Shown: one piece after another, positions 181-15,904 of the stretch
Numbering within the stretch: position 1 is the stretch's first letter
Layout of the letters: the number at the start of each line of letters is the position of its first letter
From: Desulfobacterales bacterium
Lineage (GTDB): Bacteria; Desulfobacterota; Desulfobacteria; Desulfobacterales; QNYZ01
Length of the DNA stretch: 17,272 bases
Direction of reading: 5' to 3'
NCBI GenBank assembly: GCA_029938515.1
Contig: JAOZUU010000006.1
Coordinates: 1-17,272, forward strand
The notes under the pieces: model-generated
What the model saw: the letters and a program-made list of their open reading frames with translations, nothing else
Databases searched by the model: none
Told to the model about the DNA's origin: nothing
Program-made: the position numbers and the translations under genes

Positions 181-2694
181 TTATCGACCCTTTCCTTTGA
201 TCAGCAGCAACGTATTGCCGATAACACTCAAGCTGCTTAACAGCATGGCACTCACGGCCACCAGCGGTGTCAGCAACCCGCTCATGGCAATGGGGATGCT
301 GATGATATTGTAGAGAAAGGCGCCGATGAAATTCTGTTGAATTTTCCGGTTTACCTTTTTGGCCAGTTCAAGAAAATCCAGGACCTGGCGCGGATCACCC
401 CGCATCAGGGACACATCCGCTACCTCTTTTCCCAGCAAGTGACCACCGTGGACGGCCAGCGCCAGGTCCGATTGCGCCAGGGCCGGCGCATCGTTGATAC
501 CGTCTCCCACCATGGCCACGACATGTCCGTTTTTCTTCAGATCCCGGACAAACTCGGCCTTGGCTGTCGGCAACATCCCGCCAAGGGATTTGCCGATGCC
601 GATGTTACGACCGATTAATCGGGTAGTTCGATCTCCATCACCGGAAATCAGGGCCGTGGCATACCCCTTGATATGGAGGGTTTTGATCGTCTCGGCGGCA
701 CCATCCTTGACGCGATCACCAAATTCAAACACTGCCGCCGGAGCATCATCAATCCCCATATAAACCCGTGAGGTATTCTCATCATTTGATTCATCAATGG
801 GTGCATCAATGAATGCTTGATTTCCACTATCTGTTGAAAATACCGGCCGCAAAAGATCCCATGAGCCTAGTTTTATTTTTTTCCGGTCAAAATAGCCGGT
901 CACACCATTATCACAAACCGAAATATTTTGAACGCTCTCGGGAGAAATACGTTGTGCCTTGGCATACCGTTGAATGGCCAGGGCGATGTAATGGTCCGAT
1001 TCTATTTCAAGGCCTGCGGCCAAAGCCAATATATTCTCTTTCGAAAACGGTTCGCGAATGACGACCCGAATCAGTTCCCATTGCCCGTGGGTGATGGTTC
1101 CGGTTTTATCAAAAACGAAATCACTTAAGCGATCCGTCCGTTCAAAGCAGGAAAAATCCCGGATCAGCATTCCGTTTCGGGCCGATACGGTGATGCCGGC
1201 GATACGGGCCAGAGGGATGGCGATTCCCAGGGCGCAAGGGCATGAAATGACCAGGACCGTTACGGACCGGATAACCGCATCTTCAATCGATATTCCGGAC
1301 AAAAGACAGATGATCCCGGCACAAAAGGCCAGCAAAATGACACCGGGGACAAACCATTGCAGTATCCGGTCGGTCTTTCCTTCCAGGGGTGTCCTTCGCT
1401 CCAGCGAATTTTCCATGATGCTGATCATCTGGCCCAGGATCGATTCCTCACCGATCCGGCGAGCCTTGACTTTCAGATCACCCTTGATCACGGAAGATCC
1501 GCTGCGAATCATGTCACCGGGCTTTTTTACCACCGGGCGGGCTTCGCCGGTCAATGACGATTCGTCCAATACACCCGTTCCTTCCATTACAATTCCATCT
1601 GCCGCCACGATCTCATCTGCTTCAACCCTGAACAGGTCCCCGCGCCCAAGCTGCTTAATCGATACATAGCGGCCCTGGGAATCGCTTTCGGACCATATTT
1701 TGACTTTCTTGGGTTTTAACGAAAAAAAGCTGTCCAGATCCTTCAGCACCTCATCTTTGGCCTTGGTTTCGAGTGTCTTGCCCAGCAGGACCAAGGTAAT
1801 CAACATGGCGGCGGTATCAAAATATAGATGCAAACTCCCCATCGTGAAATTATAGGTACTATATAAATAAGTAATAGATGATCCCACGCTGATTAAAGTC
1901 TCCATTCCAAATGTGGCCGTGGTAAAACTGGATAGCGCCCGTTGATGGATTTTGGTTCCGCCATAAAAGAAGACAATACTGGCCATTATAAAAATTGGCC
2001 ATGAAATCATGCGGATCTCATTTTTTGATAATTCGGTAAAAAAACCGGAATAAAGGGCAAAGGACAGCATCATGATATTCAAGGTAAGGAAAGCGGATAT
2101 GGCAAATCGAAGGAATTCTTTCCTTTTCCAGGCGGATGCGGAGTCATCGTCGTCGGGTTCAACCCCGTAACCCAATTGCCGAATGGTCGTGGCAATTTTT
2201 TCCGGCGATGTCCGGACCGGATCGTATTCACACCGGACCCGGTCTGTTGAAAAATAGCAGGCGGCACTGAACACGCCGGCGTTTTTTTTCATCGTTTCCT
2301 CAATGACCCAGGCACAGGCCGGACACCACATCCCGCTGACATTTAAATATAGCGGCAGTCTGTTCGGGCCTGAGGTTGAATGCGGGTCTGTTTCAACCGG
2401 GGTGCGGGTGAAGCATGACGCATCAGCTGTTGGTGAGACCGAATCGCGGGTTTTTTTCGCAAGGTCGGATTCCGAACGGGGAATGATGCCCATCGCCTGG
2501 CATTTTTTAAACAACTCGGTTGTCTGAAAATCGGCTGGATCGACTGAATCCGTTGCCTCCATCAGGATGCGGAATACCTGTTTGCATCCCTGACAACAAA
2601 AAAAGTAGGTTTGATCACCTGAAGCAAGCGGGAAGGAACCTAACCGCAGAGGAAGCCCGCACAGATCACAGGAGGCGTTGGGAAGGTTCTTCAA
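181..2694 (-). CDS. ccoI: CcoI/FixI-type copper-translocating P1B ATPase
   Basis: This is a heavy-metal P-type ATPase of 837 residues that should move copper across the inner membrane for assembly of the cbb3 CuB centre. The N-terminus carries a cysteine-rich metal-binding domain (C9, C12, then the FCCQGC run at 32-37) that is typical of CcoI rather than plain CopA. An HMA domain with GMWCPAC follows at about residues 120-190. The membrane region has the CPC motif near 485. The soluble domain shows TGE in the actuator loop, DKTGT (phosphorylated Asp near 528), SGDGD and GDGINDAPAL. The ATG lies inside the stop region of the preceding cytochrome gene (ATGA overlap, 2691-2694), so translation is probably coupled. 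It is the last gene of the cluster. The P1B ATPase call is near certain; the CcoI role rests on the N-terminal domain and the cbb3 context. Confidence 0.95.
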   Translation of the reverse strand: MKNLPNASCDLCGLPLRLGSFPLASGDQTYFFCCQGCKQVFRILMEATDSVDPADFQTTELFKKCQAMGIIPRSESDLAKKTRDSVSPTADASCFTRTPVETDPHSTSGPNRLPLYLNVSGMWCPACAWVIEETMKKNAGVFSAACYFSTDRVRCEYDPVRTSPEKIATTIRQLGYGVEPDDDDSASAWKRKEFLRFAISAFLTLNIMMLSFALYSGFFTELSKNEIRMISWPIFIMASIVFFYGGTKIHQRALSSFTTATFGMETLISVGSSITYLYSTYNFTMGSLHLYFDTAAMLITLVLLGKTLETKAKDEVLKDLDSFFSLKPKKVKIWSESDSQGRYVSIKQLGRGDLFRVEADEIVAADGIVMEGTGVLDESSLTGEARPVVKKPGDMIRSGSSVIKGDLKVKARRIGEESILGQMISIMENSLERRTPLEGKTDRILQWFVPGVILLAFCAGIICLLSGISIEDAVIRSVTVLVISCPCALGIAIPLARIAGITVSARNGMLIRDFSCFERTDRLSDFVFDKTGTITHGQWELIRVVIREPFSKENILALAAGLEIESDHYIALAIQRYAKAQRISPESVQNISVCDNGVTGYFDRKKIKLGSWDLLRPVFSTDSGNQAFIDAPIDESNDENTSRVYMGIDDAPAAVFEFGDRVKDGAAETIKTLHIKGYATALISGDGDRTTRLIGRNIGIGKSLGGMLPTAKAEFVRDLKKNGHVVAMVGDGINDAPALAQSDLALAVHGGHLLGKEVADVSLMRGDPRQVLDFLELAKKVNRKIQQNFIGAFLYNIISIPIAMSGLLTPLVAVSAMLLSSLSVIGNTLLLIKGKGR

Positions 2695-3218
2695 TTACTT
2701 TTTTGACGAGACCCCAATGATTTTACATAGGCAACGATCCGCCAGCGATCATTAACATCAATGGTGGTGGCCAAGGGCGGCTGCCGTCCGTCGGGTATGC
2801 CGAAACTAATCTCTTTGAACAGGCTTCCCTCGGATCGACCCTGTACCTTGGCCGCCTGTAAATCCATCGGTAACGGTGCGAAACTTTGACCGACGGTCCC
2901 GTTGCCGTCATGTTTTTTTCCGTGACACTGGGCGCAATAGGTAAAATATGCTTTCCGGCCCAAATCTATATTATTAGGGGCGGTTAAATCCAGTGGTGAT
3001 CGTAAATCTTCCGCGGGCATGGCGGCATGGATTGCATCACCGCCCGTAAAGGGTACAATGCCGGATGTCATCACCGGTATCGGTGCTTCATGGGGCCGAA
3101 TGCCGGGGGTCTCCCACATCCGGCCGTATTTAAAATGGTCGTCATAATAGGTCAGGCCGACATAAGCGGCCGACAAGACGACTGTCAGTACCACTGCCAA
3201 TAAGGCCAGGTTCTTCAT
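2691..3218 (-). CDS. actE: ActE-like membrane-anchored monohaem cytochrome c
   Basis: A 175-residue cytochrome c with one N-terminal hydrophobic segment (about residues 4-24, MKNLALLAVVLTVVLSAAYV) and one haem motif, CAQCH, beginning near residue 95. No lipobox cysteine is visible, so an uncleaved membrane anchor is likely. Features typical of ActE are present: the MWETPGIRPHEAPIPVM segment, the 'PLDLTAPNNIDLGRKAYFTY' lead into the haem, HGKKHDGNGTV after it, and a C-terminal NDRWRIVAYVKSL. In ACIII, ActE is a monohaem subunit that helps carry electrons to the acceptor. ActE is usually encoded between actD and actF; here it comes near the end of the cluster, between a small membrane protein and ccoI. 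A plain oxidase-associated cytochrome c is the alternative. Confidence 0.75.
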   Translation of the reverse strand: MKNLALLAVVLTVVLSAAYVGLTYYDDHFKYGRMWETPGIRPHEAPIPVMTSGIVPFTGGDAIHAAMPAEDLRSPLDLTAPNNIDLGRKAYFTYCAQCHGKKHDGNGTVGQSFAPLPMDLQAAKVQGRSEGSLFKEISFGIPDGRQPPLATTIDVNDRWRIVAYVKSLGSRQKSN

Positions 3219-3446
3219 CTATTCCCCTTTGGCGCCCCGTATATGTTGCGGATAGGGCAATTTCTCATAGATGGCATAGGGCGACTGGGACGGCACATCG
3301 GCAACGGGCCGGTAATCCCAAGTCGGCTGTCCCCGGTCCCCGATCACAAAGAAAGCATAAAACGCTTTAGCTACAACAAATAGAACCAGGAGACAAACAA
3401 CGACCCAGGTCTTGAGGGCCGATTCATTTAACACATCGTGTGTCAT
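3219..3446 (-). CDS. Small single-pass membrane protein, function unknown
   Basis: A 75-residue protein with one hydrophobic segment (about residues 13-35, TWVVVCLLVLFVVAKAFYAF), followed by a soluble tail containing GDRGQPTWDYRPVADVP and SPYAIYEKLPYPQ. The tail would lie outside the cytoplasm if the N-terminus stays in. It fits tightly between its neighbours: one base separates it from the upstream gene and none from the actE-like gene, so it is almost certainly translated as part of the operon. I do not recognise a named family. The proline- and aromatic-rich tail and the position suggest a small structural subunit of the oxidase or of the ACIII-oxidase assembly, but that is inference only. 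Confidence 0.8.
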   Translation of the reverse strand: MTHDVLNESALKTWVVVCLLVLFVVAKAFYAFFVIGDRGQPTWDYRPVADVPSQSPYAIYEKLPYPQHIRGAKGE

Positions 3447-3447
3447 T

Positions 3448-3723
3448 TTATATTTTTACCTCGAATATTCCGATGGACAGGATATAAAAAAATCCCCAGA
3501 GCACCGTCCCGACAATGACCAGAACCATGGCCAGGGGAAACGGTGCGTCTCGATCCTCAATACCATCCGGGAAGCGATAACAGATTTCAGTTTTTCGCTT
3601 TTCTGAATGTCGGGTGATAAAATGGGATTGCCCCAGAAACAATCCCAACAGGATAATAAATATCAGGGTCGGGAATAAACAGATAATGATATGCTGGAAA
3701 TTTAGAAGATCATAAAAACGCAT
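3448..3723 (-). CDS. Two-helix membrane protein resembling the N-terminal domain of CcoP/FixP
   Basis: A 91-residue protein with a hydrophobic segment at about 11-31, a basic middle (RHSEKRKTE) and a second hydrophobic segment at about 63-85. Just before the second helix it reads RFPDGIEDRDAPFPLAM, which resembles the DGI-E-x-(D/N)-P-x-P signature at the membrane entry of the CcoP/FixP N-terminal domain. CcoP normally carries this segment fused to one or two cytochrome c domains. Here no haem motif is present, while an extra cytochrome c domain is found on the CcoO protein upstream. It may therefore be the membrane part of a split CcoP that helps hold the oxidase together. The resemblance is short and judged by eye, so the role is tentative. 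Confidence 0.75.
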   Translation of the reverse strand: MRFYDLLNFQHIIICLFPTLIFIILLGLFLGQSHFITRHSEKRKTEICYRFPDGIEDRDAPFPLAMVLVIVGTVLWGFFYILSIGIFEVKI

Positions 3724-3753
3724 AATGGATCCTTTTTACGATAGTCCTTAGTA

Positions 3754-4014
3754 TTACTTCCCATGCAACAAGGCAGCGATCAACACTGCCGCGCTGGCCC
3801 CCAGTCCGGCAATGGCCAGTAAAAATAAAGCATACGTTTCCAGGCGATTGAACCGCGATGTTTTTGGTGCCGAGACATTCAATTCCTCCGTCAACGGCAA
3901 GAACCTGGCGCGCTGCTGGTTTTTAAATTGACCGGTTTTGATCGCCCAGATTAAAACCACCAGGCTAATGGCAAAACCGACGGTGATGTAACTGATAAAA
4001 TACGGGAAATACAT
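3754..4014 (-). CDS. CcoS-like cbb3 oxidase maturation protein with an extra C-terminal helix
   Basis: An 86-residue protein with two predicted membrane helices (about 8-26 and 62-83). After the first helix it reads LIWAIKTGQFKNQQRARFLP, which matches the pattern of CcoS proteins (short helix, then W-x-x-x-(S/T)-GQF and a basic stretch). CcoS is needed for cofactor insertion during cbb3 oxidase maturation. Typical CcoS is shorter and has only the first helix; here a linker and a second helix extend it. The ATG at 4014 lies just beyond a tandem repeat block with no clear ribosome binding site, so the S23-type insert upstream may have changed its translation signal. A small structural subunit (CcoQ-like) is the main alternative. 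Confidence 0.65.
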   Translation of the reverse strand: MYFPYFISYITVGFAISLVVLIWAIKTGQFKNQQRARFLPLTEELNVSAPKTSRFNRLETYALFLLAIAGLGASAAVLIAALLHGK

Positions 4015-4022
4015 TTCTTTTT

Positions 4023-4082
4023 AGTTTTATGAGTTCAATGAGTTTTATGAGTTCAATGAGTTTTATGAGTTCAATGAGTTTT
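4023..4082. repeat. Tandem repeat, three copies of an 18-base unit
   Basis: Three exact copies of AGTTTTATGAGTTCAATG (4023-4040, 4041-4058, 4059-4076), followed by a partial copy starting AGTTTT. Each 18-mer is two 9-base half units of the form AGTTnnATG. The block overlaps the last codons and stop of the four-helix-bundle gene (stop at 4071-4073) and ends about 10 bases before the start of the CcoS-like gene. Confidence 0.97.
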
Positions 4083-4445
4083 GTTTTTTCTAAGATAATT
4101 GGCCAGCGATAATGTCATTCGGGAAATTTCATCGCATTGGTTATATAACTCATCGAAGGTCTCTTGGTTAATATAGTTTTGATCTAAAGCCAAGTAAAGA
4201 TGAGACTGAGTTTCAGCGGCTGATCCATGCGAATAGTTAAGGAAATTGGCAAATTCCTGGTTGGATCGTCTACCAAAGCCCTCCGCAATATTTGCCATTA
4301 CGGATATTGCCGACCTTCGAACCTGGTGCTGAAGGTCAAAATCTTTTCCAAATCTACTATAACTTGACACCTTATAGACCCTATTCACTAACTCTCTCGC
4401 CTTTTGCCACGCTTCAATATCCTCAAACCGTTCAATTTTCCCCAC
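4071..4445 (-). CDS. Four-helix-bundle protein of the S23 (23S rRNA intervening sequence) family
   Basis: A 124-residue protein starting with GTG (4445-4443). It opens with the usual family start, IERFEDIEAWQKARELV, and continues with QVRRSAISVMANIAEGFGR (about 62-80), the most conserved region, then FANFLNYSHGSAAETQSHLY. The members form a four-helix bundle. They were first seen encoded in insertions within 23S rRNA genes, but most genomic copies lie elsewhere and their function is unknown. This one sits between ccoO and ccoS of a respiratory operon and has no visible link to it. Its gene is boxed by repeats on both sides (4023-4082 and 4462-4536), and the flanking genes' stop and start codons lie at the very edge of the box. 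It therefore looks like an inserted cassette. Family confidence is high, role unknown. Confidence 0.93.
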   Translation of the reverse strand: MGKIERFEDIEAWQKARELVNRVYKVSSYSRFGKDFDLQHQVRRSAISVMANIAEGFGRRSNQEFANFLNYSHGSAAETQSHLYLALDQNYINQETFDELYNQCDEISRMTLSLANYLRKNKTH

Positions 4446-4461
4446 AACCCACTCCCACCAA

Positions 4462-4536
4462 CCATCAACTCCCCAAACTCTCTACAACTCTCTCCAAACT
4501 CTCTAAACTCCCTCAACTCTCTCCAACTCTCTAAAC
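4462..4536. repeat. Degenerate tandem array of 9-11-base AGTT units
   Basis: On the minus strand this reads as about eight units that each begin with AGTT and end in purines, for example AGTTTAGAG, AGTTGGAGAG, AGTTGAGGG, AGTTTGGAGAG. It fills the gap between the ccoO stop (4541-4543) and the GTG start of the four-helix-bundle gene. Part of its purine-rich sequence (GGGAG) may act as the ribosome binding site for that gene. Confidence 0.85.
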
Positions 4537-4540
4537 TTTT

Positions 4541-5476
4541 TCAAGGCTCATAAGCCGCATCAATACCTTTAGGTTCCTCATCGGCATCGGTCTGGTTAAT
4601 AAAATTGACGGCGACATAATTGCCTACATCCCAAATCTTTTCCGATTCCAGCTCACGTTTAAAATAAGGCATGGCCGTGCCGGTAATGCCGTTCATGATC
4701 TGGTAATATAAAATACCGCCGCTGATGCCCCGGTCTTTTAAAATTGTGAAATTCAAGGGCGGCGGATAGAGATATTGCTGGGCCGGTCCCATGCCATCCC
4801 CAATGGGGCCATGGCAGCCAAAACAGAAATCCTGATAGATTTTATGTCCCCTGGCCAGCCCGGCCGCACTGGTTGGATAGGGATTGGGAATGTTTCGCCA
4901 CCCTTCGGGTATCAGTTCATGCAGCCATCTTACATTGGCTTCGGGTCCGGCTTCATAAGCTTTAATGGATGCTTCCTTCCAAAATTTTTGCCGCTTCATC
5001 CGCTCATCAGCATTTTTTAATCCCAGGCTCTGTACATAGTTTGTCAGCCGTTCGATATTCTCCGTGCCGAGAAAGGCAAAGGCCGGCATAATGGACAGCG
5101 GCCGGGTATATCTGGGGTTGATGAAATGAGCGGTCTGCCAGTCGTCCGGGTGCTCGCCTCCCTCCTGGGAAAGATCGGGGCCCGTTCGCTGGGAACCGAG
5201 AAGGATGGGATGATCCTGGACATAATCTCCTGCCTGGGCGATCCGTTCCGCACCCAGGCCCCAATCAATGACGCGAATGGACTGGCTGTGACAGTAGACA
5301 CACCCATTGGCGATATAGATATCTCGGCCGGTGGCCTCTTCATCCGATCGGAGTCTGAAAATTTCCGACGGGGTTATTTTATTGGTATGGAAATACGGTA
5401 AAATCACGACGGCAAACACCACGGCGGCGAGAATCATCAGGCTGCCGAACACCACCGCTTTGAAGGTCATCTTCAT
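4541..5476 (-). CDS. ccoO: CcoO-cytochrome c fusion (dihaem subunit of cbb3 oxidase)
   Basis: A 311-residue dihaem cytochrome c, anchored by an N-terminal helix (about 6-28). The first half is a CcoO domain: GRDIYIANGCVYCHSQSIR (haem Cys59/Cys62/His63), then a loop with DHPILLGSQRTGPDLS and INPRYTRPLSIMPAF, where the Met is the likely sixth haem ligand. The second half, from about residue 205, is a further class I cytochrome c domain with CFGCHGPIGDGMG (Cys218-His222) and a late TAMPYF methionine. It passes electrons from periplasmic or ACIII cytochromes to CcoN. Usual CcoO has one haem, and the second domain resembles what CcoP normally supplies. The start overlaps the ccoN stop by ATGA (5473-5476), which implies coupled translation. 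Confidence 0.93.
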   Translation of the reverse strand: MKMTFKAVVFGSLMILAAVVFAVVILPYFHTNKITPSEIFRLRSDEEATGRDIYIANGCVYCHSQSIRVIDWGLGAERIAQAGDYVQDHPILLGSQRTGPDLSQEGGEHPDDWQTAHFINPRYTRPLSIMPAFAFLGTENIERLTNYVQSLGLKNADERMKRQKFWKEASIKAYEAGPEANVRWLHELIPEGWRNIPNPYPTSAAGLARGHKIYQDFCFGCHGPIGDGMGPAQQYLYPPPLNFTILKDRGISGGILYYQIMNGITGTAMPYFKRELESEKIWDVGNYVAVNFINQTDADEEPKGIDAAYEP

Positions 5477-6882
5477 GAGGCTGCTTCTCTGGTATTAAAA
5501 AACAGGGTTGCAAGGATATTAAACAACCCGATCAGGGCCGAAACGAATACCATTAATCCCAGGGCGGCCCGGGTGACATAGTACGGATGAATCTCCGGCA
5601 GGATTCGATAAACCACTTCCCCATTCAGCCAGGCATTTCCCTGGATCAGGCCCGCGATGGTCAGGACCACGGTAAAACCGACCATGCCGATTAAAACCAG
5701 CCAGTATTGTAAATCGGCCAAAAACCGGCTGTAGAGCGGTTTGCGGGTAATGTAAGGCAGAACATAATAAATGCCGCCCAGCGTGATCATGCCTGCAAAC
5801 CCCAGCACCCCGATATGGGCGTGTCCCACCACCCAGTTATTAAAATGGGTGACCCGCTGAACATCGGGAAGCGCCATCATGGACCCCTGGATACTGACAA
5901 AAAAGTACATGATGGTGCCGGTAAAAACAAATTTTCCGCCGATATCGGCATGAATCTCGCCCAATTTTCCCCTGGCCGTAAACCAGATGTTAATCAGAAA
6001 GGCCATGACCGGAATCACCATGGCGATGCTATCCACAATGGCGATCACCTTCAGCCAGGTGGGGACCGGTACCTGTAGGAGATGATGGGTGCCGATATGC
6101 GTATAAACCACTAGAAGCGCCCAAAAACCCACCAGGGAAAGGGTATGACTGTAAAGTGGCGCCCGGCATACCCTGGGGATCACGTAATAGGTAACCCCGG
6201 CCGCTAAGGGCGTCAGCAAAAGACCAAATACATTGTGGCCGTAAAACCATAATAGAATCGCGTCGGGAATTCCCACCAGAGCGCCGCTGTTGGGCCGCCA
6301 GATGACATTGCCGAGGGAGTAAGTGGTGGCGGTTAAAATAACGCCGGCCAGGACATACCAGACGGAAACATAAAGCACCGGCTCCTGGCGATTTTTAACG
6401 GTCATGACCAGGTTAATAAAAACCAGGGCAAATGCAATAACCACCATTATATCGATGGGCCAGATCAATTCGGCGTACTCCCGGCCCTGGGTATAGCCCA
6501 TACAAAGGCTGATCACCACCGCCACCAGAGCGACGTTCCATGCGATCACGGTGACAACGCCCAGCTTCTCACTGTAAATTTCGGTCCGCAGCAGCCGCGG
6601 CACATAGTAAAAAGCGGCCCCAAGCAATCCCGGTGTAACGAAACCAAACAGTACAATATTGATATGAACCGGCCGGATACGACCGAAAACAAGCCATCCT
6701 ATATTTTCCGTCAGGTCCGGTGCCATCAATTCAGTGGCGCCGAGCAGCCCCATAAAGGTGCCCACAACCATCCAACACGCCGATGTCAGGGTAAATCCTT
6801 TGGCGGTGGCATGAGATTGAATCTTATCGTCAATTGCCGCGGTCAATACAGTTTCTCCCCTTTTTCTTTTTCGTTGTGACAT
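5473..6882 (-). CDS. ccoN: CcoN, catalytic subunit of cbb3-type cytochrome c oxidase
   Basis: A 469-residue polytopic haem-copper oxidase subunit that reduces O2 at the haem b3-CuB site. Visible ligands are His73 (RPVHINIVLFGF), His216 in WFYGHNVFG, Tyr232/233 in the helix carrying the cbb3-type cross-linked tyrosine, the CuB pair His266-His267 (GTHHLL), and His354/His356 in WVVGHAHIG. The GREYAELIWPID segment is characteristic of CcoN and argues against NorB. The glutamate of the usual FEGPMM motif is glutamine here (IQGSMM, Q332). The ATG at 6882 has a poor ribosome binding site and lies only about 16 bases from a palindromic element. A TTG at codon 13 (6846-6844) is preceded by GGGGAG eight bases upstream and may be the true start, which would give 457 residues. 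Confidence 0.97.
   Translation of the reverse strand: MSQRKRKRGETVLTAAIDDKIQSHATAKGFTLTSACWMVVGTFMGLLGATELMAPDLTENIGWLVFGRIRPVHINIVLFGFVTPGLLGAAFYYVPRLLRTEIYSEKLGVVTVIAWNVALVAVVISLCMGYTQGREYAELIWPIDIMVVIAFALVFINLVMTVKNRQEPVLYVSVWYVLAGVILTATTYSLGNVIWRPNSGALVGIPDAILLWFYGHNVFGLLLTPLAAGVTYYVIPRVCRAPLYSHTLSLVGFWALLVVYTHIGTHHLLQVPVPTWLKVIAIVDSIAMVIPVMAFLINIWFTARGKLGEIHADIGGKFVFTGTIMYFFVSIQGSMMALPDVQRVTHFNNWVVGHAHIGVLGFAGMITLGGIYYVLPYITRKPLYSRFLADLQYWLVLIGMVGFTVVLTIAGLIQGNAWLNGEVVYRILPEIHPYYVTRAALGLMVFVSALIGLFNILATLFFNTREAAS
6844..6860 (-). promoter_or_regulatory. Strong ribosome binding site before an internal TTG of ccoN
   Basis: On the minus strand GGGGAG (6859-6854), within a run AGGGGAG, stands eight bases ahead of TTG (6846-6844), in frame with the ccoN ATG at 6882. 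The upstream ATG has only TAAG nearby. This favours the TTG as the start, or as a second start. Confidence 0.55.
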
Positions 6883-6897
6883 CTTATGAAAAATAGC

Positions 6898-7028
6898 GCT
6901 GATGGCTAAGTAAAAAGGCCATATACAAGGCGTCGAGTTTTTTCAGGGGCGAGGGCCATACACAAGGTATGCCGAGTGTCTGAAAAAACACGACAACGCC
7001 GTAGATGGGACTTTTGACGACGCCATCA
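6898..7028. repeat. Imperfect palindromic element between actA and ccoN
   Basis: About 130 bases with nested inverted symmetry. The outer arms GATGGC..GTAAAAAGGCCATATACaAGGCGTC (6901-6933, with breaks) mirror 6996-7026. The next arms share TTTTTTCAG (6937-6945) with CTGAAAAAA (6980-6988). The centre has GGCCATAC against GTATGCC (6954-6974). It fills almost the whole space between the genes, and its right end coincides with the actA stop codon (7028-7026). It looks like a miniature mobile or palindromic intergenic element of a kind common in large deltaproteobacterial genomes. Only one copy is in the window, so mobility is not shown. Confidence 0.7.
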
Positions 7029-7577
7029 ATTATGGCACGCCAACCAGCAGTCAAGATTGGCTTTTTTAGCTTTATGACAAGTGATACAAAAACCCATTTT
7101 AAAACTTTCACCCTTCAGGCGATCCATCGTTTCAATGGGGCCATGGCATTCCCCACAGGCAATCTCTTTTTTAATATGACGCTGGTGGTTGAAAAATACA
7201 TGTTCCGGCAGATAAAAAACCTTCTTCCACGGTGTGGGGGTCCCGGTGTTAAAATACATGTGTTCTTTTTGAATTTCAGGGTGGTTGGCGATGATATATT
7301 TGTGGCAATACAGGCATTTTTCCACCGGGGGTATCCCCGGGTGAATCGAACGGTCCACATACGAATGACAAAATTGACACTGGATATCCTTGATCCCCGC
7401 ATGAACCCGATGGCTGAAGGCGATCGGCTGGGCCGCACCGATATCGGTGGCCGGCGGAATATAGAAATAAAAAAGAAAACCGATCACAGAGACAACGATC
7501 AATCCCACCCAGAAAATCAACTGGGTATCTTTAACCCTTTTGTGAGAATTGTTTTTTTCAGTGATCGAAGGGGTCAT
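7026..7577 (-). CDS. actA: ActA-type pentahaem cytochrome c of alternative complex III
   Basis: A 183-residue multihaem cytochrome c with an N-terminal membrane anchor (about 21-39) and the family's PIAFSHRVHAG lead segment. Haem motifs in order are CQFCH, CLYCH, CGECH, CITCH and a C-terminal CWLACH. The last has three residues between the cysteines (CX3CH), whereas relatives normally end in a CXXCH of the DCWTCH type. Additional histidines (FSHRVH, FNHQRHI) are likely distal ligands. In ACIII the ActA haems carry electrons from the ActB Fe-S chain to the acceptor. The ATG overlaps the actF stop (ATGA, 7574-7577). The 3' end runs directly into a palindromic element that supplies the TGA. actA is usually first in the operon; here it follows actF. 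Whether a fifth haem is attached is open. Confidence 0.9.
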   Translation of the reverse strand: MTPSITEKNNSHKRVKDTQLIFWVGLIVVSVIGFLFYFYIPPATDIGAAQPIAFSHRVHAGIKDIQCQFCHSYVDRSIHPGIPPVEKCLYCHKYIIANHPEIQKEHMYFNTGTPTPWKKVFYLPEHVFFNHQRHIKKEIACGECHGPIETMDRLKGESFKMGFCITCHKAKKANLDCWLACHN

Positions 7578-8770
7578 CTCTTTTCCGCCGATGGTTCAAA
7601 TCGTTTCAACTCCGGAAATTCATCCAGAAAATACACCACTGCAAAAATCATCAGTCCAAAAAATCCCAGCGTAATAAAACCGTCCAGCAACCCTATCGGT
7701 AATGTTTCACTCCCGTGGCTGATGGCCGGACCGACAAGCAGAAGATGTTCGAACCAGATGCCGATAAGAATGACGGTCACCAGAATCATCATGAATTTGG
7801 GTTTGGTTTTTACGTTTTTATTTAGCAAAATGAAAAATGGGAGTACAAAGCAAACGATAAGCACGCCCCAGGCCAGAAAATTCCAGGGGGACATCATGGT
7901 TCGCTCAATCACATAGGCGGTCTCTTCGGGGATGTTGCCGTACCAGATGACCACGAGCTGAACATAAAAGAAATCGGCCCATAACAGACAAAAGGCGAAA
8001 AAGAGTTTCCCCAGATTGTGGAAATGCGACAACGTCAGCCCGGATGAATCTCCCTGGGTCAGGTAAATTACGGCGGATAGGATGATCAGCCCGCCCAGCC
8101 CCACGTAAAATGCCTTGATGAATTGATATGCACCGAAAAGAGTTGAGACCCAATGGGGATCCAGGGCCATCACCAGGTCATACCCGATAAGGGAAAGGAC
8201 ACAGGCAAAGGCCAGGGCGTAAAGCACGCTGAAAGTACTCATCCGTTGCCGGACCCGCTTAACATCCGGATTGGCTCCCATCTTTTGATCGAGAAAAGAT
8301 CGCAGCCGCCCGCCCGCTGATTGCCGACTTGTTTTTAATTGTAAGGCGCAAAAAAGGTAGGCAAATCCCAACCCGTACAGAATTAACAATGCGACACCAT
8401 CCCTGAAAAATAGAAAGGGTACGTTGAGCCAGACTTCTTTGCCGTGAAGGTCCATGTGCAGCCAGGGAAACACATACGATTTTCCCAAAAAAAGAATCAG
8501 AAAAAGCCCAAAGGAAATCGGGAAAAAAGCGGCAAAGACTTCGGATAAATTGGTGAGCGGACCGCTCCACTTGGCCTTGGTCAAGTGCATGATCACGGAG
8601 AATAGAAGTCCTCCCTGGGCGATGGCCGACCACAGCAGGAAATTGATCAAATACGCCTGCCATGCCCGTTCGGGATGGTCTCCGGCCGCCTGAATCACGA
8701 AAGCCAGAAACCCCAGAGCAATCAGAACGGTCCCGAGAATGACCAGGCGTTTATTTTTCAACGATAGCAT
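7574..8770 (-). CDS. actF: ActF, integral membrane subunit of alternative complex III
   Basis: A 398-residue protein with about ten hydrophobic segments, related to the NrfD/PsrC-like quinol-interacting subunits but shorter than ActC. The family signature region reads AYLINFLLWSAIAQGGLLFS near residues 40-60, followed by HLTKAKWSGPLTNLSE; both match ActF and its paralogue ActC. In ACIII, ActF forms part of the membrane sector beside ActC, and a proton path has been proposed through it. It lies 126 bases after actD, a gap taken up by a palindromic repeat, with only a weak AGG upstream of the ATG, so translation may be less tightly coupled here than elsewhere in the operon. It overlaps actA by four bases. 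The family assignment is firm. Confidence 0.92.
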   Translation of the reverse strand: MLSLKNKRLVILGTVLIALGFLAFVIQAAGDHPERAWQAYLINFLLWSAIAQGGLLFSVIMHLTKAKWSGPLTNLSEVFAAFFPISFGLFLILFLGKSYVFPWLHMDLHGKEVWLNVPFLFFRDGVALLILYGLGFAYLFCALQLKTSRQSAGGRLRSFLDQKMGANPDVKRVRQRMSTFSVLYALAFACVLSLIGYDLVMALDPHWVSTLFGAYQFIKAFYVGLGGLIILSAVIYLTQGDSSGLTLSHFHNLGKLFFAFCLLWADFFYVQLVVIWYGNIPEETAYVIERTMMSPWNFLAWGVLIVCFVLPFFILLNKNVKTKPKFMMILVTVILIGIWFEHLLLVGPAISHGSETLPIGLLDGFITLGFFGLMIFAVVYFLDEFPELKRFEPSAEKR

Positions 8771-8788
8771 CGGATGATTTACCTAACT

Positions 8789-8887
8789 AATATTTTCGTC
8801 ACCAAGACACCAGGACACGAAGTTTAATTATAAACCAGCTATTATTTGTGTCTTAGTGTCTTTGTGGCTATTCTCTCCGGTTTATCC
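8789..8887. repeat. Palindromic repeat, copy 2 (between actD and actF)
   Basis: This 99-base element is the near-identical reverse complement of 80-180, with differences mainly at the outer stem and a two-base indel in the loop. Its arms (8798-8821 and 8845-8868) pair at about 22 of 24 positions with wobbles, around a 23-base loop, so it is a better palindrome than copy 1. Unlike copy 1 it has no T-run following in the minus direction, so it is not an obvious terminator within the operon. It occupies the slot where actE is normally found. Confidence 0.85.
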
Positions 8888-8896
8888 GGGGCGGGT

Positions 8897-9427
8897 TCAT
8901 GGATTCCCTGCCGACGTTGATGGTTCAAAAACCCGCGTAATCCCGCCTTTTTCCTTGAAATACGTAATCAATTGACTTTTCTCGGCTTCAGGGCAGGCGG
9001 CCAGTACCCCGAAATGATCTCCCGAGCACCGGGGATCGTAGACATCCAGGCCCTTATAATCCGGTAGTCCGCCCTGGGTCAGTAAACCGATGACATTTCC
9101 GAGCACCGCGAAAAGAATGGTGAATTCAAACCCCACGATCACAAAAGGAACCAGCGCAATCACCGGTTTGCCGCCCACAATGAGGTTCCATTTGGCCGCG
9201 GTGAACATCGCCAGTGCGAATCCCAGGAAAAAACCGATGATGCCGCCGACCAGGGTAAAGTAGCCCACCTTGCTTTTTTTGAGATTCAAGGCATCGGAAA
9301 GTTTGTGGCTCGGGACCGGGCTATGAACCTGTTTCAAATGCCACGGCGTTTTTTTGAGGGCCGTAATCGCCGAAGCGGCCCGGTCTTCATCGGTAAAAAG
9401 CCCCATGACTTGACATTCAGCCCCCAT
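8897..9427 (-). CDS. actD: ActD, DUF3341-type membrane subunit of alternative complex III
   Basis: A 176-residue protein with a soluble N-terminal domain (QVMGLFTDEDRAASAITALK), a two-helix hairpin (about 57-77 and 93-117) and a C-terminal tail with GGLPDYKGLDVYDPRCSGDHFGVL. This is the architecture of the DUF3341/ActD family, whose members are structural, cofactor-free subunits flanking the ActC/ActF membrane sector. It overlaps actC by 11 bases (the actC TGA lies inside the first codons of actD), and AAGGAG at 9439-9434 inside actC provides the ribosome binding site, so the two are translationally coupled. Assignment rests on size, topology, conserved segments and gene order, and is secure. 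Confidence 0.93.
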   Translation of the reverse strand: MGAECQVMGLFTDEDRAASAITALKKTPWHLKQVHSPVPSHKLSDALNLKKSKVGYFTLVGGIIGFFLGFALAMFTAAKWNLIVGGKPVIALVPFVIVGFEFTILFAVLGNVIGLLTQGGLPDYKGLDVYDPRCSGDHFGVLAACPEAEKSQLITYFKEKGGITRVFEPSTSAGNP

Positions 9428-10733
9428 GACTTTCTCCTTGGACGAGAACTTCTTTATTTTCCGTCATCGATACCGACGGCATGTGTTTGACAAACAGGAT
9501 AAACAGGAAAAAGAAAAGACTGAAACTGCCCACCATGATACCCATCTCCACAACGGTCGGCCAGTAAAGCCCCCAGGCGTGAGGCATGAAATCATGGGCC
9601 ACGCTGGAAATAATGATCACAAACCGCTCGAACCACATGCCGATATTGATAAAAATCGAGATTACGAATAGCCAGATGATCGATCGCCGGATCCGTTTTA
9701 GAAAAAGAAACAGCGGTATGATGGTGTTACAGATCACCATGATCCAGAATCCCACCCGGTAATGTCCCAGGGCGCGCCATTTGAAGATCGCGATTTCAAC
9801 ACTGTTGTGGCTGTACCAGGCGATGAAAAACTCCGTGCCATAGGCAAACCCGACGATGAGACCCGTAAAAATAATGGTTTTGGCCACATTCTCCAAAACG
9901 TCCAGGGTGATGATCTTTTCGTAGCCGAAAATTTTTCTGAGTGGAATCATCAGGGTCAACACCATGGCCAGACCCGAGTGGATGGCACCGGCGACGAAAT
10001 AGGGGGCAAAGATTGTCGTATGCCAGCCGGGAACAACCCCCAGGGCAAAATCCCAGGATACGACGCTGTGCACCGAAATCACCAGGGGCGTGGCCAAGGC
10101 GGCAAAGAAAAGATATCCCCGCACATAATGTCGCCACTGCTCCATTCGCCCTGTCCATCCCATGGAAAGGATCGTGAATATTTTTTTACGCAGCCCGGTG
10201 GATCGGTCCCGCACTATGGCCAGATCCGGCAACAGCCCGGTATACCAGAACAGGGAACTCACGATGAGGTAGGTACTGATGGCCACCACGTCGAACATCA
10301 GCGGCGATTGAAAATTCGGCCAGAGGGTCCGCTGGTTGGGATACGGAAGCATATAGAATACCATCCAGGCCCGCCCCAGGTGGACAAAGGGAAACAGACC
10401 GGCGGTACATACGGCGAAGACGGTCATGGTTTCCGCGGCCCGGGCAATCGGGTTGCGCCAGCCCGCCCGGAACAAATGTAAAATAGCCGAAATCAGGGTC
10501 CCGGAATGGGCGATTCCCACCCAGAAGACGAAATTGATCAGATAGGTTCCCCAGGCCACCGGGTTATTCTGTCCGCCGACGCCGATACCGATAAATATCT
10601 GATAGATCCAGCAGGCAAGTCCGCCGAGGATCCCGGCGGCCAGCAATGCTACCGTAAACCAATAGGCCCCGGTAGCCGGACGTAGTGTGTCCAGGACGGT
10701 TTGATCGATTTTGGCGTAGGTTAACTCGGACAT
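9417..10733 (-). CDS. actC: ActC, NrfD/PsrC-like quinol-oxidising membrane subunit of alternative complex III
   Basis: A 438-residue polytopic protein with about ten membrane segments, belonging to the NrfD/PsrC superfamily. The signature stretch WGTYLINFVFWVGIAHSGTL (about 62-81), followed by HLFRAGWRNPIARAAE, is diagnostic of ActC/ActF, and GRAWMVFYMLPYPNQRTLWP is typical of ActC. In ACIII, ActC holds the quinol site on the periplasmic side and passes electrons to the Fe-S clusters of ActB. It starts 17 bases after the actB stop and ends inside actD. Other NrfD proteins (polysulfide reductase, Hme/Dsr complexes) are excluded by the ActD/ActF neighbours and the length. Confidence 0.95.
   Translation of the reverse strand: MSELTYAKIDQTVLDTLRPATGAYWFTVALLAAGILGGLACWIYQIFIGIGVGGQNNPVAWGTYLINFVFWVGIAHSGTLISAILHLFRAGWRNPIARAAETMTVFAVCTAGLFPFVHLGRAWMVFYMLPYPNQRTLWPNFQSPLMFDVVAISTYLIVSSLFWYTGLLPDLAIVRDRSTGLRKKIFTILSMGWTGRMEQWRHYVRGYLFFAALATPLVISVHSVVSWDFALGVVPGWHTTIFAPYFVAGAIHSGLAMVLTLMIPLRKIFGYEKIITLDVLENVAKTIIFTGLIVGFAYGTEFFIAWYSHNSVEIAIFKWRALGHYRVGFWIMVICNTIIPLFLFLKRIRRSIIWLFVISIFINIGMWFERFVIIISSVAHDFMPHAWGLYWPTVVEMGIMVGSFSLFFFLFILFVKHMPSVSMTENKEVLVQGESHGG
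9434..9439 (-). promoter_or_regulatory. Ribosome binding site of actD inside actC
   Basis: AAGGAG on the minus strand, six bases ahead of the actD ATG (9427-9425) and within the last codons of actC. It fixes the actD start and explains the 11-base overlap. Confidence 0.8.
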
Positions 10734-10750
10734 ATCAAATACTCACGGAT

Positions 10751-13717
10751 TCAGGAAAACTCCTGAACCACTTTTTTAAGGTAAATGACGGCCGGTTTGG
10801 TATTGATGTATCCCATGGCCTGGTAAGCGCGCCGGTTCTGGGTCAACATCCTCACCTGGCTGTTCACATCCATGAGGTTGCCGAAGGTCAGGGCACCGGT
10901 GGGACAGGTCTGAACACAGGCCGGAATAACCTCCCCGTCTTTAATGTCCCTTTTTTCATCCTTGGCCACACCATGAGCCACCTTGATGCGTTGAACACAG
11001 AAAGAGCACTTTTCCATCACTCCTTTACTTCGAACGGTCACATCGGGATTGAGCTGGAGATTCAGCGGTTCCGGCCATTCCCATTCAAACCAGTTAAACC
11101 GCCTGACCTTATACGGACAGTTCTGGGAGCAAAAGCGAGTCCCGATGCACCGATTGTAGATCTGGTTATTTATTCCCTCCTTGGAATGATGAGGGGCATA
11201 CACGGGGCAGACCGGTTCACAGGGTGCATTATCGCAATGCTGGCACATCATGGGAAAGAAGGTGATTTTTTCCGGATTTTCCGGATCATGGTAGCGCTCC
11301 ACCTGTAACCAGGCCATTTCCCGCCCCTCGATGATCCGGTCTTTCCCCACAATGCCGATGTTATTCTCCACATAGCAGGCCGCCGCGCAGGCCGCGCAAC
11401 CAATGCATTTATCCAGATCCACGACCATGGCCCAGCGATAATTCTCGTGGCCATGGGGCGGATAGAAATCTCTTTTGGGATCGTATCCTTCCGGCAAGGG
11501 GAGGGTGAAGGGAAAACCTTCCATGGTCAACGATTCTCCATGGCCGGTTTTTTCATCGTCATTTTTGATAACCTGATCCAGGGGGACCGATAATGCGATT
11601 TTACGCCCATGCTGAATCCGGCTGCCATCAGTATGCGCCAGAGGTATGGTGTCACCGGTACCGGTGAAATCCGTTACGATGATAGAAAATACCGGGGCTC
11701 CGGTGTGGTCATCCGTTTTTGTTGACAGCAGGGTGAGCGGGTTGATTCCCACATTTTCAGCATATCTTCCGAAATGGCGATGTCCCTGCCCCATGCCCAT
11801 CACTAACACACCGGTTTTTACCTGGCGGGTCTCATAGGCGATGGTCTCGACGCGTCCGTAGCGGGTCTTGATTTCCACTCCTTCGCCATGGCCGGTTCCC
11901 GCCGCCTTGAGGGTCTCGGGATGACCCAGCACAGGGGTCTGCCAGGCCACTTTGGTCAATGGATCCGGTATTTCACACAGCCAGGGCCGGTTGGCGCCCC
12001 GGCCGTCAAAAAACCGGATGGAGGGCACGGCCGCAAATATCGGTTTGGCCGGATCCGCTTCGACAGTATCCGCAACTGTTTTAAAAAGACCAGCGACGCT
12101 CTCCAGCAACCGTGGACGCGTAACCGCTTGGGAGACCGCTGAAAATACCCCGCCGGCTTGAAGGGCTTTCAACCACCCGTTTTTTTCCTTCACAATCCCC
12201 CTGGAATGCAGCCGTGTCATCACCCAGGCTTTGTAATCGGAGACAGGCTGGTCATCCTTAAAAGCGACATCCAGCATCAGGTCACCGATATGCGGTGCCT
12301 CGGTCAAACGTCCCATGGCAGGTTGAAGGGTGGAAATAATTCCGTTTTTACCGCTGTACTCATCCCAGGATTCGAGCGAGAGGCTCACCGGGAAAATCAG
12401 ATCGGCCAAGGCAGTGGTGTCATCCATGAAATTGGAAAAAGACACCACGAACAGCCGGTCGTCGGTCAGGGTTTCTTTAACCCCGCTATCGTGGGGAAGG
12501 GCGTACACCGGGTTGGCATTATGGATAAAAAGCAGTTTGGCGGCATCGGCGCTTAAAGATTTGAAAAAATCGAGAACTTCTGATCGCCTGGCCGACCGCT
12601 CGACTCGATGTCGATGATCAAAATCGAAAAGTGCGAGGTCCGGGTCCAGGACAAGGTTTAGCATATTGGCCGCCAGATCGGCCTGAAAGGCACCGCCTCC
12701 GGCACCGGTACCGAGAATCAAGGGCGTTTTGGCTTTTAATACGTGGGATTTTAAGGTTTCAAAATCTTTTGGATTGATACCTGCCATGCGAGCCGTCGCT
12801 TGCGCGGTGTACCCTTCGGATGCATCCCGCAAGGATTGGACGAGGGATTGGGGAAGACCGGATCCCCGGCCCTGCTCAAGGGCCGCCTTGATCAGCCCCA
12901 TGACGACGGCAGCCTCTTTACCGGGGTCACAGGCAATCCAGCGATCGGCATTGGCACCGGTGAGAGACTGATAAGGGCTGATATGAAAAAAGATCCCCTT
13001 CTTTTCCGTTTTCACGGCATGCATGGCCTTAAACTGCCAGGCGTATTCCACCGGAGACAACCAGGTTTCCAAAAAATCGGCCCCCAGGGAAACCAGGCAA
13101 TCGGCCTTGTCCATACGATAGGATGGCAGGCCGTCAATACCGAAGGCTTCACGGTTCGCCGTCTTTAGTGTTTCGTATGCCAACGGCTCGAATGCGATCG
13201 GATCTTTAGATTTAAATTGTTCCAGGCAGCGGGTAAACAAGGTCATCTGGCTGTCACCGACAAGCTCAGTGATCATACGAACCTTGTCGGAGCCGTTTTG
13301 AACGGCCTGGATCGTTTTTTCCTGAATAAGGGAACGGGCCTGGGAAAACGAAATCGGCTGCCATTGGCTATTTTTTTTCTGGCCGTTTTTCTTCAGCAAG
13401 GGGCTTTTGATCCGGTCTGGATTATAAATGCCCTGGACAACGGCCTGGCCCCGGATGCACAACTTTCCCCGATTGATGGGATGCAGGGGATTCCCTTCGA
13501 CCTTGATCACCCGGCCTTCCCGATTTTTAGCGATAATACCGCATCCCGCCGGGCATTCCCGGCACGTGGAGGCATACCAGGTGGGTGACCCGGTCACCAT
13601 GTCGGCGGGTGCCTGCACCAGGGAAAAAATGGTTTTATCCGTTTCGGACGTGCAGGCCGATGCCGCAAAAGAAAGGCTGCCCATGCCGGCAAGCTTGAGA
13701 AAGTTTCGGCGTTTCAT
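10751..13717 (-). CDS. actB: ActB, fused molybdopterin-oxidoreductase-like and ferredoxin subunit of alternative complex III
   Basis: A 988-residue exported iron-sulfur protein and the first gene of the cluster. It begins with a Tat signal (RRNFLKLAG, twin Arg at 3-4) ending in SFAASAC, which could be a weak lipobox with Cys22 as lipid site. The B1 half is molybdopterin-oxidoreductase-like and keeps a CX2CX3CX27C motif (Cys52, 55, 59, 87), although the ACIII B1 domain is known to lack a molybdenum cofactor. The B2 half (about 765-960) is a four-cluster ferredoxin domain: CIGCAACAAAC near 771, CQHCDNAPCEPVC, CIGTRFCSQNC (Cx4Cx3C), CSFC and ACVQTC near 933-938. It relays electrons from ActC towards ActA. 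Only a purine-rich GAGAG precedes the ATG. Formate or polysulfide dehydrogenase chains are alternatives excluded by the fusion and the neighbours. Confidence 0.96.
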   Translation of the reverse strand: MKRRNFLKLAGMGSLSFAASACTSETDKTIFSLVQAPADMVTGSPTWYASTCRECPAGCGIIAKNREGRVIKVEGNPLHPINRGKLCIRGQAVVQGIYNPDRIKSPLLKKNGQKKNSQWQPISFSQARSLIQEKTIQAVQNGSDKVRMITELVGDSQMTLFTRCLEQFKSKDPIAFEPLAYETLKTANREAFGIDGLPSYRMDKADCLVSLGADFLETWLSPVEYAWQFKAMHAVKTEKKGIFFHISPYQSLTGANADRWIACDPGKEAAVVMGLIKAALEQGRGSGLPQSLVQSLRDASEGYTAQATARMAGINPKDFETLKSHVLKAKTPLILGTGAGGGAFQADLAANMLNLVLDPDLALFDFDHRHRVERSARRSEVLDFFKSLSADAAKLLFIHNANPVYALPHDSGVKETLTDDRLFVVSFSNFMDDTTALADLIFPVSLSLESWDEYSGKNGIISTLQPAMGRLTEAPHIGDLMLDVAFKDDQPVSDYKAWVMTRLHSRGIVKEKNGWLKALQAGGVFSAVSQAVTRPRLLESVAGLFKTVADTVEADPAKPIFAAVPSIRFFDGRGANRPWLCEIPDPLTKVAWQTPVLGHPETLKAAGTGHGEGVEIKTRYGRVETIAYETRQVKTGVLVMGMGQGHRHFGRYAENVGINPLTLLSTKTDDHTGAPVFSIIVTDFTGTGDTIPLAHTDGSRIQHGRKIALSVPLDQVIKNDDEKTGHGESLTMEGFPFTLPLPEGYDPKRDFYPPHGHENYRWAMVVDLDKCIGCAACAAACYVENNIGIVGKDRIIEGREMAWLQVERYHDPENPEKITFFPMMCQHCDNAPCEPVCPVYAPHHSKEGINNQIYNRCIGTRFCSQNCPYKVRRFNWFEWEWPEPLNLQLNPDVTVRSKGVMEKCSFCVQRIKVAHGVAKDEKRDIKDGEVIPACVQTCPTGALTFGNLMDVNSQVRMLTQNRRAYQAMGYINTKPAVIYLKKVVQEFS

Positions 13718-15901: not shown

Positions 15902-15904
15902 TAT

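Follow-up and report, generated by a model that had tools for sequence, protein, structure and literature searches.

A conserved block of alternative complex III and cbb3-type oxidase genes in Desulfobacterales

Genes of the block

The window analysed here is the whole of contig JAOZUU010000006.1, a stretch of 17,272 nucleotides from the 3.2 Mb, 560-contig, 72% complete assembly GCA_029938515.1 of a Desulfobacterales bacterium. Its minus strand, from 13717 to 181, carries the genes of alternative complex III (ACIII) and of a cbb3-type oxidase in the order ActB, ActC, ActD, ActF, ActA, CcoN, CcoO fusion, IVP-family gene, CcoS-like gene, CcoP anchor, sm1, ActE and copper ATPase. The genes for ActB, C, D, F, A and E, CcoN, the CcoO fusion, the CcoS-like protein and CcoI, which an initial annotation had read on one strand, were all present. 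A dsrA match of 614 bits, above the cut-off, was found in the same genome, and a sulfate reducer of the Desulfobacterales is the very probable host. The features of the block are listed below, with E values in brackets unless bits are given.

10751..13717, minus strand: ActB, molybdopterin-like and 4Fe-4S fusion subunit (QrcB 1.1e-68, QrcC 6.8e-65; Pfam Molybdop_Fe4S4 and Fer4 types)
9417..10733, minus strand: ActC, NrfD-type membrane subunit, in which the quinol site is expected (PDB 6f0k_C 1.6e-138, 6btm_C 1.1e-130)
8897..9427, minus strand: ActD, membrane subunit (PF11821 4.8e-39)
7574..8770, minus strand: ActF, second NrfD-type membrane subunit (conserved position; about 20-23% identity to ActC)
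7026..7577, minus strand: ActA, membrane-anchored pentahaem cytochrome c (PDB ActA chains 8k9e, 6f0k, 6lod and 6btm, 6e-40 to 1e-30)
5473..6882, minus strand: CcoN, catalytic subunit of the cbb3-type oxidase (PF00115 3.8e-80; PDB CcoN 3mk7_A 7.5e-77)
4541..5476, minus strand: fusion of CcoO with a second monohaem cytochrome c domain (FixO 2.1e-33; Cytochrome_CBB3 6.3e-14)
4071..4445, minus strand: 23S-rRNA-IVP-family four-helix-bundle protein, 124 residues (PF05635 5.6e-39, TIGR02436 5.7e-37)
3754..4014, minus strand: CcoS-like protein with a second hydrophobic stretch (FixS in 19 of 19 aligned members at E<=0.01)
3448..3723, minus strand: CcoP membrane anchor of the FixP_N type without haem domains ("sm2"), 91 residues (FixP_N in 10 of 18 aligned members at E<=0.01)
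3219..3446, minus strand: sm1, 75-residue protein of no known family, in which a single membrane helix (10-35) is predicted and the tail is conserved
2691..3218, minus strand: ActE, monohaem cytochrome c subunit of ACIII (best PDB match ActE 6f0k_E of R. marinus, 1.5e-16)
181..2694, minus strand: P-type ATPase for copper translocation, taken as CcoI/FixI from its position (TIGR01511 at 427.5 bits, cut-off 397; HMA domain)

ActC matched the ActC chains of solved ACIII structures at E values of 1e-113 to 1e-138, 6f0k_C being that of Rhodothermus marinus. ActB scored under the curated cut-offs of the QrcB and QrcC models, as expected for an ACIII relative. ActF had no Pfam or NCBIfam match of its own and was identified by its position and its weak similarity to ActC. 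The cytochrome at 2691-3218 was taken as ActE because it scored best to R. marinus ActE and lower to CcoP; the next PDB matches were 6h5l_B (5.8e-14), ActE 6lod_E (8.2e-12) and CcoP 3mk7_C (3.1e-8). As read from its sequence, the block encodes a complete ActA to ActF set with five c-haem sites in ActA. Residues were followed through a pooled set of 107 non-duplicate loci. The first ActA haem motif was kept in 95 of 96 loci (one gap) and the remaining four in all 96, the fifth being CX3CH in 96/96 (CWLxCH in the window). The haem motif of ActE was kept in 97 of 98 loci. The column of its axial Met held Q in 75 of the 98, H in 7, M in 4, T in 4, A in 3, S in 2, E in 1 and a gap in 2, and three of the four Met rows (L070, L127 and L130) were mis-hits to the CcoO haem domain; His/Met ligation of a monohaem ActE was thus not found here. 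Met is the axial ligand of ActE in R. marinus, which may not define the family. The N-terminus of ActE is its own hydrophobic start, lipobox-like by eye in a few relatives.

CcoN aligned to the solved cbb3 CcoN chains at E values of 5e-69 to 7e-80 and was the sole COX1 match found in its 72% complete genome. Checked against what we take to be the ligand positions of Pseudomonas stutzeri CcoN, the six His ligands and the active-site Tyr were present, and they were kept wherever the alignment covered them, barring single loci. Residue 332, beside the proximal His, aligned to the residue that we number Glu323 in P. stutzeri CcoN; it was Q in 98 of 105 loci, R in 5, L in 1 and a gap in 1, and the conserved Glu was therefore missing. 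This Glu is reported to be highly conserved in cbb3 oxidases (PMC8398457). The change from Glu to Gln could alter the environment of haem b3. CcoO is the monohaem subunit typical of cbb3 oxidases with a further haem domain added, and the residues followed in it were almost invariant over the 107 loci (C59 in 105; C62 and H63 in 106; M130, C218, C221, H222 and M269 in 107). The closest solved relatives of the second haem domain were 6h5l_B and cytochromes c552, not CcoP. In place of a dihaem CcoP the block has a haem-free anchor only, the haem domain being on CcoO instead. The AlphaFold model of the CcoO fusion was poor (45.5), and the FixS score of the CcoS-like protein of the window itself lay under the Pfam curated cut-off.

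Both small membrane proteins between the CcoS-like gene and ActE had initially been regarded as unknown and as candidate linking subunits. That reading fell for the product of 3448-3723, which is a CcoP anchor: in addition to the FixP_N matches, five of its six PDB matches at E<=1 were CcoP-type cbb3 chains (best 3mk7_C, E 0.0036), and its profile matched that of the haem-free Desulfurivibrio-type CcoP anchor from an ordinary cbb3 operon of the same phylum with a probability of 71% (E 3.7e-5). The three other profile comparisons made for the small proteins gave probabilities of 0.4-1.1%; among them, sm1 as a shrunken FixH was rejected at 0.8% against 7 FixH sequences, and sm1 as a piece of CcoP was rejected as well. 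The reading stood for 3219-3446. None of 18 aligned sm1 sequences had a Pfam match at E<=0.01, and no PDB match of sm1 was found at E<=1, which leaves sm1 as the remaining candidate linker. Its relatives numbered 1830 among 3120 candidates; in the best 120 of these 1830 matches, the named ones were mostly "hypothetical protein", with one named flagellar protein, and the organisms were Deltaproteobacteria, Desulfobacteraceae, Desulfobacterales or Thermodesulfobacteriota. One Trp of the tail was kept in 96/96 loci. AlphaFold predicted helix 10-35 confidently and the tail with low confidence (mean pLDDT 69, pTM 0.39).

From ActB to the ATPase, with the IVP gene counted, the junctions measured 17, -11, 126, -4, 143, -4, 95, 56, 30, 1, 0 and -4 bases. 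Their description as overlapping or near-touching held for most of them; it left out two gaps above 120 bases (126 between ActD and ActF, 143 between ActA and CcoN) and the unmentioned 124-residue IVP-family gene between CcoO and CcoS. Promoter and terminator scans gave scores within one standard deviation of chance. In the usual ACIII gene order, actABCDEF (PMC9386147), the ActE gene has its place among the act genes. Here it was displaced into the oxidase gene set, and this position argues for a single functional unit.

Conservation and co-occurrence of the block

A same-order sample of 58 genomes, the window's own included and each listed as a different family, contained this CcoN in 19 genomes and weak partial matches in 3 more. 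In 14 of the 18 relatives' loci all 12 genes stood in the order ActB-C-D-F-A-CcoN-O-S-CcoP anchor-sm1-ActE-CcoI. The remaining four were two loci cut by contig ends, one without an adjacent ATPase and the interrupted locus of genome G054, whose break adjoins masked or gap stretches (X runs in the translations) and was for this reason not accepted as a natural separation of the modules. ActD was found in 20 of the 58 genomes: all 19 that carry CcoN, and G028, in which the contig is cut off inside ActF.

In the pooled set, 74 of the 107 loci could be judged for all 12 genes, that is, were uncensored. All 12 genes were present in 56 of these 74, and 10 of the other 18 lacked only an adjacent ATPase. 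Absences over the 107 loci were 13 for CcoI, 5 for the CcoP anchor, 4 for ActB, 3 for CcoS, 2 each for sm1 and ActE, and 1 each for ActC, ActD, ActF and ActA. Counted as present, absent and censored, ActB gave 78, 4 and 25, ActF 95, 1 and 11, ActE 95, 2 and 10, and the adjacent copper ATPase 75, 13 and 19. In three of the five loci without a CcoP anchor (L125, L126 and L128) an unrecognised small open reading frame (ORF) with hydrophobic stretches occupied its place, and the apparent loss is probably divergence. Two of the four ActB absences (L039 and L095) came from records with gap or masked stretches. In the other two, L113 (3843-6743) and L116 (3870-6797), ActB was not found in the block; its place is taken by a gene for a DsbA-like protein with a thioredoxin domain, which by eye resembles a lipoprotein, and ActC and ActD form one fused protein. 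The two loci without sm1 and ActE were L102, which contains 500 N, and L077. Seven apparent differences in order were artefacts, due to stop-to-stop frame midpoints (L031 and L042) or to ActE mis-hits to the CcoO haem domain (L040, L070, L082, L127 and L130).

The order was also conserved in distant families, with CcoN 51-61% identical, and its recurrence in loci of many families goes beyond chance. The titled loci were the best 80 of 157 confirmed ones from a search with the CcoO fusion; most of these 80 bore the label Desulfobacterales, Desulfobacteraceae or Deltaproteobacteria or the name of a genus in that group, and a few were Syntrophobacterales, Syntrophobacteraceae, Desulfatiglandales, SAR324 or "bacterium". 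Isolate-titled records with the block were Desulfosarcina alkanivorans (L050), D. widdelii (L055) and Desulfatitalea alkaliphila (L066), together with D. cetonica (L053), in which the contig carrying it begins within ActC. Since isolate-titled records carry the block, it is not an accident of assembly. A layout produced by fragmented metagenome assembly or contamination might be suspected from a window that is one contig of an incomplete 560-contig assembly and from the separated modules of G054; the same order in the isolate-titled records and in many unrelated assemblies, and the masked or gap stretches adjoining the G054 split, make it extremely improbable.

Clustering of the flanks (71 loci with an upstream and 77 with a downstream flank) gave no generally conserved neighbour, the largest group of similar ORFs comprising 15 loci, and the edges of the block are thus sharp. 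The distance matrices of Act and Cco genes agreed with r of 0.78-0.94 over 51 loci, which fits joint inheritance.

The pairing was also followed through a phylum sample of 395 genomes, in which CcoO rows above 424 bits were counted as the fusion (in G406 it lay in two pieces) and sm1 was called at E<=0.001. By raw counts, the CcoO fusion of this clade occurred in 22 of the 395 genomes, and sm1 occurred in the same 22 and in no other at the thresholds used. ActD was present in 21 of the 22, the miss being G098, whose contig ends within ActA, and in 39 further genomes without this fusion. ActD and CcoO shared a contig in 20 of the 22, among which G406 is included although two contigs each hold a piece of its CcoO. 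Among the matches listed, an ordinary CcoO (E 4e-36 to 3e-19) was found in 31 genomes, one of which, G406, also holds the fusion; 10 of the 31 also had ActD, on the same contig in none of the 10. Conservation of the gene set outside this genome had been set as a test beforehand, and the set passed it on the 56 of 74 loci and on the shared occurrence of fusion, sm1 and ActD.

Proposed electron path and probable joining of the two complexes

The best explanation of these results is a dedicated menaquinol-to-oxygen unit of ACIII and cbb3 oxidase, which we regard as a fairly likely one, and judging by the genes the two complexes probably form a supercomplex. In its favour, this CcoN was the only COX1-family gene detected in 15 of the 19 operon genomes of the order sample. 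Menaquinol would be oxidised at ActC, and its electrons would pass to the iron-sulfur cluster of ActB and along the five haems of ActA, with ActE at the end of the wire. The extra haem domain on CcoO would receive them next and pass them to the haem of CcoO itself; in CcoN they would then run over haem b to the haem b3-CuB site and reduce O2, possibly with proton pumping. CcoP would serve as a membrane anchor only, its haem role being taken by the CcoO fusion; the CcoS-like protein and the copper ATPase would act in maturation; and sm1 may be a small subunit peculiar to this assembly, with a role in its structure or its formation. In the established ACIII scheme ActC oxidises the quinol, ActB and ActA carry the electrons on, and a cytochrome c fused to the oxidase takes them over (PMC5928083); the block departs from this scheme in two points, the replaced axial Met of ActE and the CX3CH form of the fifth ActA motif. 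In Flavobacterium johnsoniae electrons can reach the oxidase without ActE (PMC8552683), and by analogy a direct route from ActA to CcoO is plausible here.

ACIII and the oxidase could also be separate, co-expressed complexes, with electrons carried from one to the other by a cytochrome c, either ActE or a different one, that diffuses or is tethered; sm1 would then be an assembly factor or a part of only one complex. ActE is small and single-haem, with its own hydrophobic or, in few relatives, lipobox-like start, and ActE of R. marinus is reported to react with two different acceptors (PMC8552683). Co-transcription by itself would account for the gene order, and L077 lacks sm1 and ActE beside its remaining genes. 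Against separate complexes, sm1 was confined to the fused-CcoO genomes of the phylum sample (22/395) and was not found in the ordinary cbb3 operons L144 and L145, and an ActE with a replaced axial Met is a poor fit to a standard soluble shuttle. We therefore consider this arrangement rather unlikely.

Sulfate reducers are usually seen as anaerobes and meet oxygen in sediments and mats, which raises the question of how they get rid of it or make use of it. The system may mainly remove O2 (or NO) to protect an anaerobe, with no growth on oxygen, a proposal compatible with the dedicated unit and standing, in our estimate, somewhat short of an even chance. dsrA was above the cut-off in 19/19 operon genomes of the order sample, and in 52/58 overall; its presence in most genomes of the order marks the group rather than the operon. 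In Desulfovibrio vulgaris, the cc(o/b)o3 oxidase has been described as a proton-translocating detoxifying enzyme, and O2 gives no growth stimulation (PMC5492636); NO reduction is possible for cbb3 enzymes (PMC8398457). On the other side, ACIII plus an oxidase would be costly for pure scavenging, protection would be compatible with energy conservation, and the CuB ligands and Tyr of CcoN are those of an O2 reductase.

Several observations weigh against the dedicated, joined unit. The shared gene order may reflect co-regulation only, and the co-occurrence counts carry no correction for shared ancestry. CcoI was not adjacent in 13/107 loci. In L077 (5450-11489), ActC, D, F and A, CcoN and CcoO were present, and CcoS, the CcoP anchor, sm1, ActE and CcoI were absent in the 6 kb downstream with no N run, so that the downstream half can be lost or moved. 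Among 36 close loci, the distances of ActC and CcoN correlated with r of 0.60, against 0.67 for ActB-ActC and 0.79 for CcoN-CcoO. Owing to the replacement of its axial Met (Q in 75/98), ActE may not be an ordinary electron carrier. At least one PF00033 cytochrome b gene occurred in 7/19 operon genomes, and ACIII therefore need not be the only quinol route; the window's own genome has two such genes, C237:2681-3217 and C10:2413-2943. None of the 19 operon genomes gave a FixG_C (CcoG) match, though a C-terminally short CcoG, as in L144, would escape this search.

A stronger form of the dedicated unit, which we put forward tentatively and hold to be less likely than not, is a permanently coupled ACIII-cbb3 "quinol oxidase" widespread in sulfate-reducing Desulfobacterota. 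It would be held together by sm1, found only with it in the sample searched; ActE, its Met ligand being replaced, would have a gating or structural role and not that of a shuttle, and electrons would pass from ActA directly to the CcoO-fused haem. Should the complexes be joined, ACIII would here have a C-family oxidase as its supercomplex partner, and the sm1 family would gain a function. Because the block, a menaquinol-to-O2 set of about 12 genes, occurs in cultured genera such as Desulfosarcina, the proposal is directly testable.

Supercomplexes of ACIII with an oxidase have been reported for R. marinus and for F. johnsoniae, and oxidase clusters often follow those of ACIII (PMC5928083, PMC8361435); ACIII clusters beside oxidase genes are known (PMC5928083, PMC3534657, PMC9386147). 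The R. marinus system of ACIII and caa3 oxidase resembles the block in its ActA to ActF set, adjoining oxidase genes, pentahaem ActA and proposed direct transfer from ActE to an oxidase-fused cytochrome c domain (PMC5928083). It differs in the Met ligand of its ActE, whereas here ActE lies among the oxidase genes, the oxidase is of the cbb3 (C-type) kind, and no sm1 counterpart was found in R. marinus. The caa3 oxidase is one that we take to be A-type. F. johnsoniae also pairs ACIII with an oxidase, of the aa3 type, as a physical unit (PMC8361435, PMC8552683). Contact there runs through CytcO subunit III, and its ActA has a sixth haem; the ActA of the window has five motifs, and a gene for subunit III was not recognised in the block. 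The bc1-cbb3 supercomplexes of Rhodobacter capsulatus likewise join a complex III to a cbb3 oxidase, with bc1 in place of ACIII (PMC8361435). Qrc, the menaquinone reductase of sulfate reducers, shares the QrcB/QrcC-like ActB and the NrfD-type membrane subunit; the window's ActC matched QrcD at 7e-6 against 1e-113 to 1e-138 for ACIII ActC, and ActD, ActE and ActF are present here, unlike in Qrc.

The ordinary cbb3 operons L144 (Desulfurivibrio) and L145, from the same phylum, share the CcoO-cytochrome c fusion, a reduced CcoP (a haem-free 70-residue anchor in L144, a one-haem protein of 153 residues in L145) and Gln at the Glu323 position. They differ from the block in their CcoG-like genes, in FixH in L144, in a CcoN 32% identical to that of the window, and in that no ACIII or sm1 was found in them. 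The fusion, the reduced CcoP and the change from Glu323 to Gln were accordingly rejected as inventions of the present system, being common to both operons.

ACIII-oxidase clustering in itself was already known, and the surprise is therefore limited; the sm1 family is the most testable part. No description of an ACIII-cbb3 operon in Desulfobacterota was found in the open-access literature searched, outside which lay key ACIII reviews and a 2011 comparison of sulfate reducers, so that an earlier description is possible. Passages of two sulfate-reducer genome papers (PMC5109826, PMC2702500) mention cytochrome (c) oxidase without a link to ACIII, or cydAB.

Flanking genes and the CcoO-CcoS junction

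Beyond the block, on the plus strand from 14210 to 17272, lie a divergent GH3-family gene and a Ser/Thr protein kinase gene cut by the contig end, both outside the operon. Within it, the IVP-family gene was rejected as a member of the conserved set, having no match in the 18 relatives' loci (L025-L042). Its flanks (window region 4015-4540) contain an array with a 9-base period at about 4005-4094 and C/T-rich repeats at 4467-4532. Other PF05635 proteins were encoded at the CcoO-CcoS junction in 7 other loci (L043, L045, L048, L051, L053, L061 and L065), and only that of L053 aligned to the window's by BLAST (28% over 82 residues). With other inserts at the same place in L032, L027 and L034, the CcoO-CcoS junction looks like an insertion hot spot.

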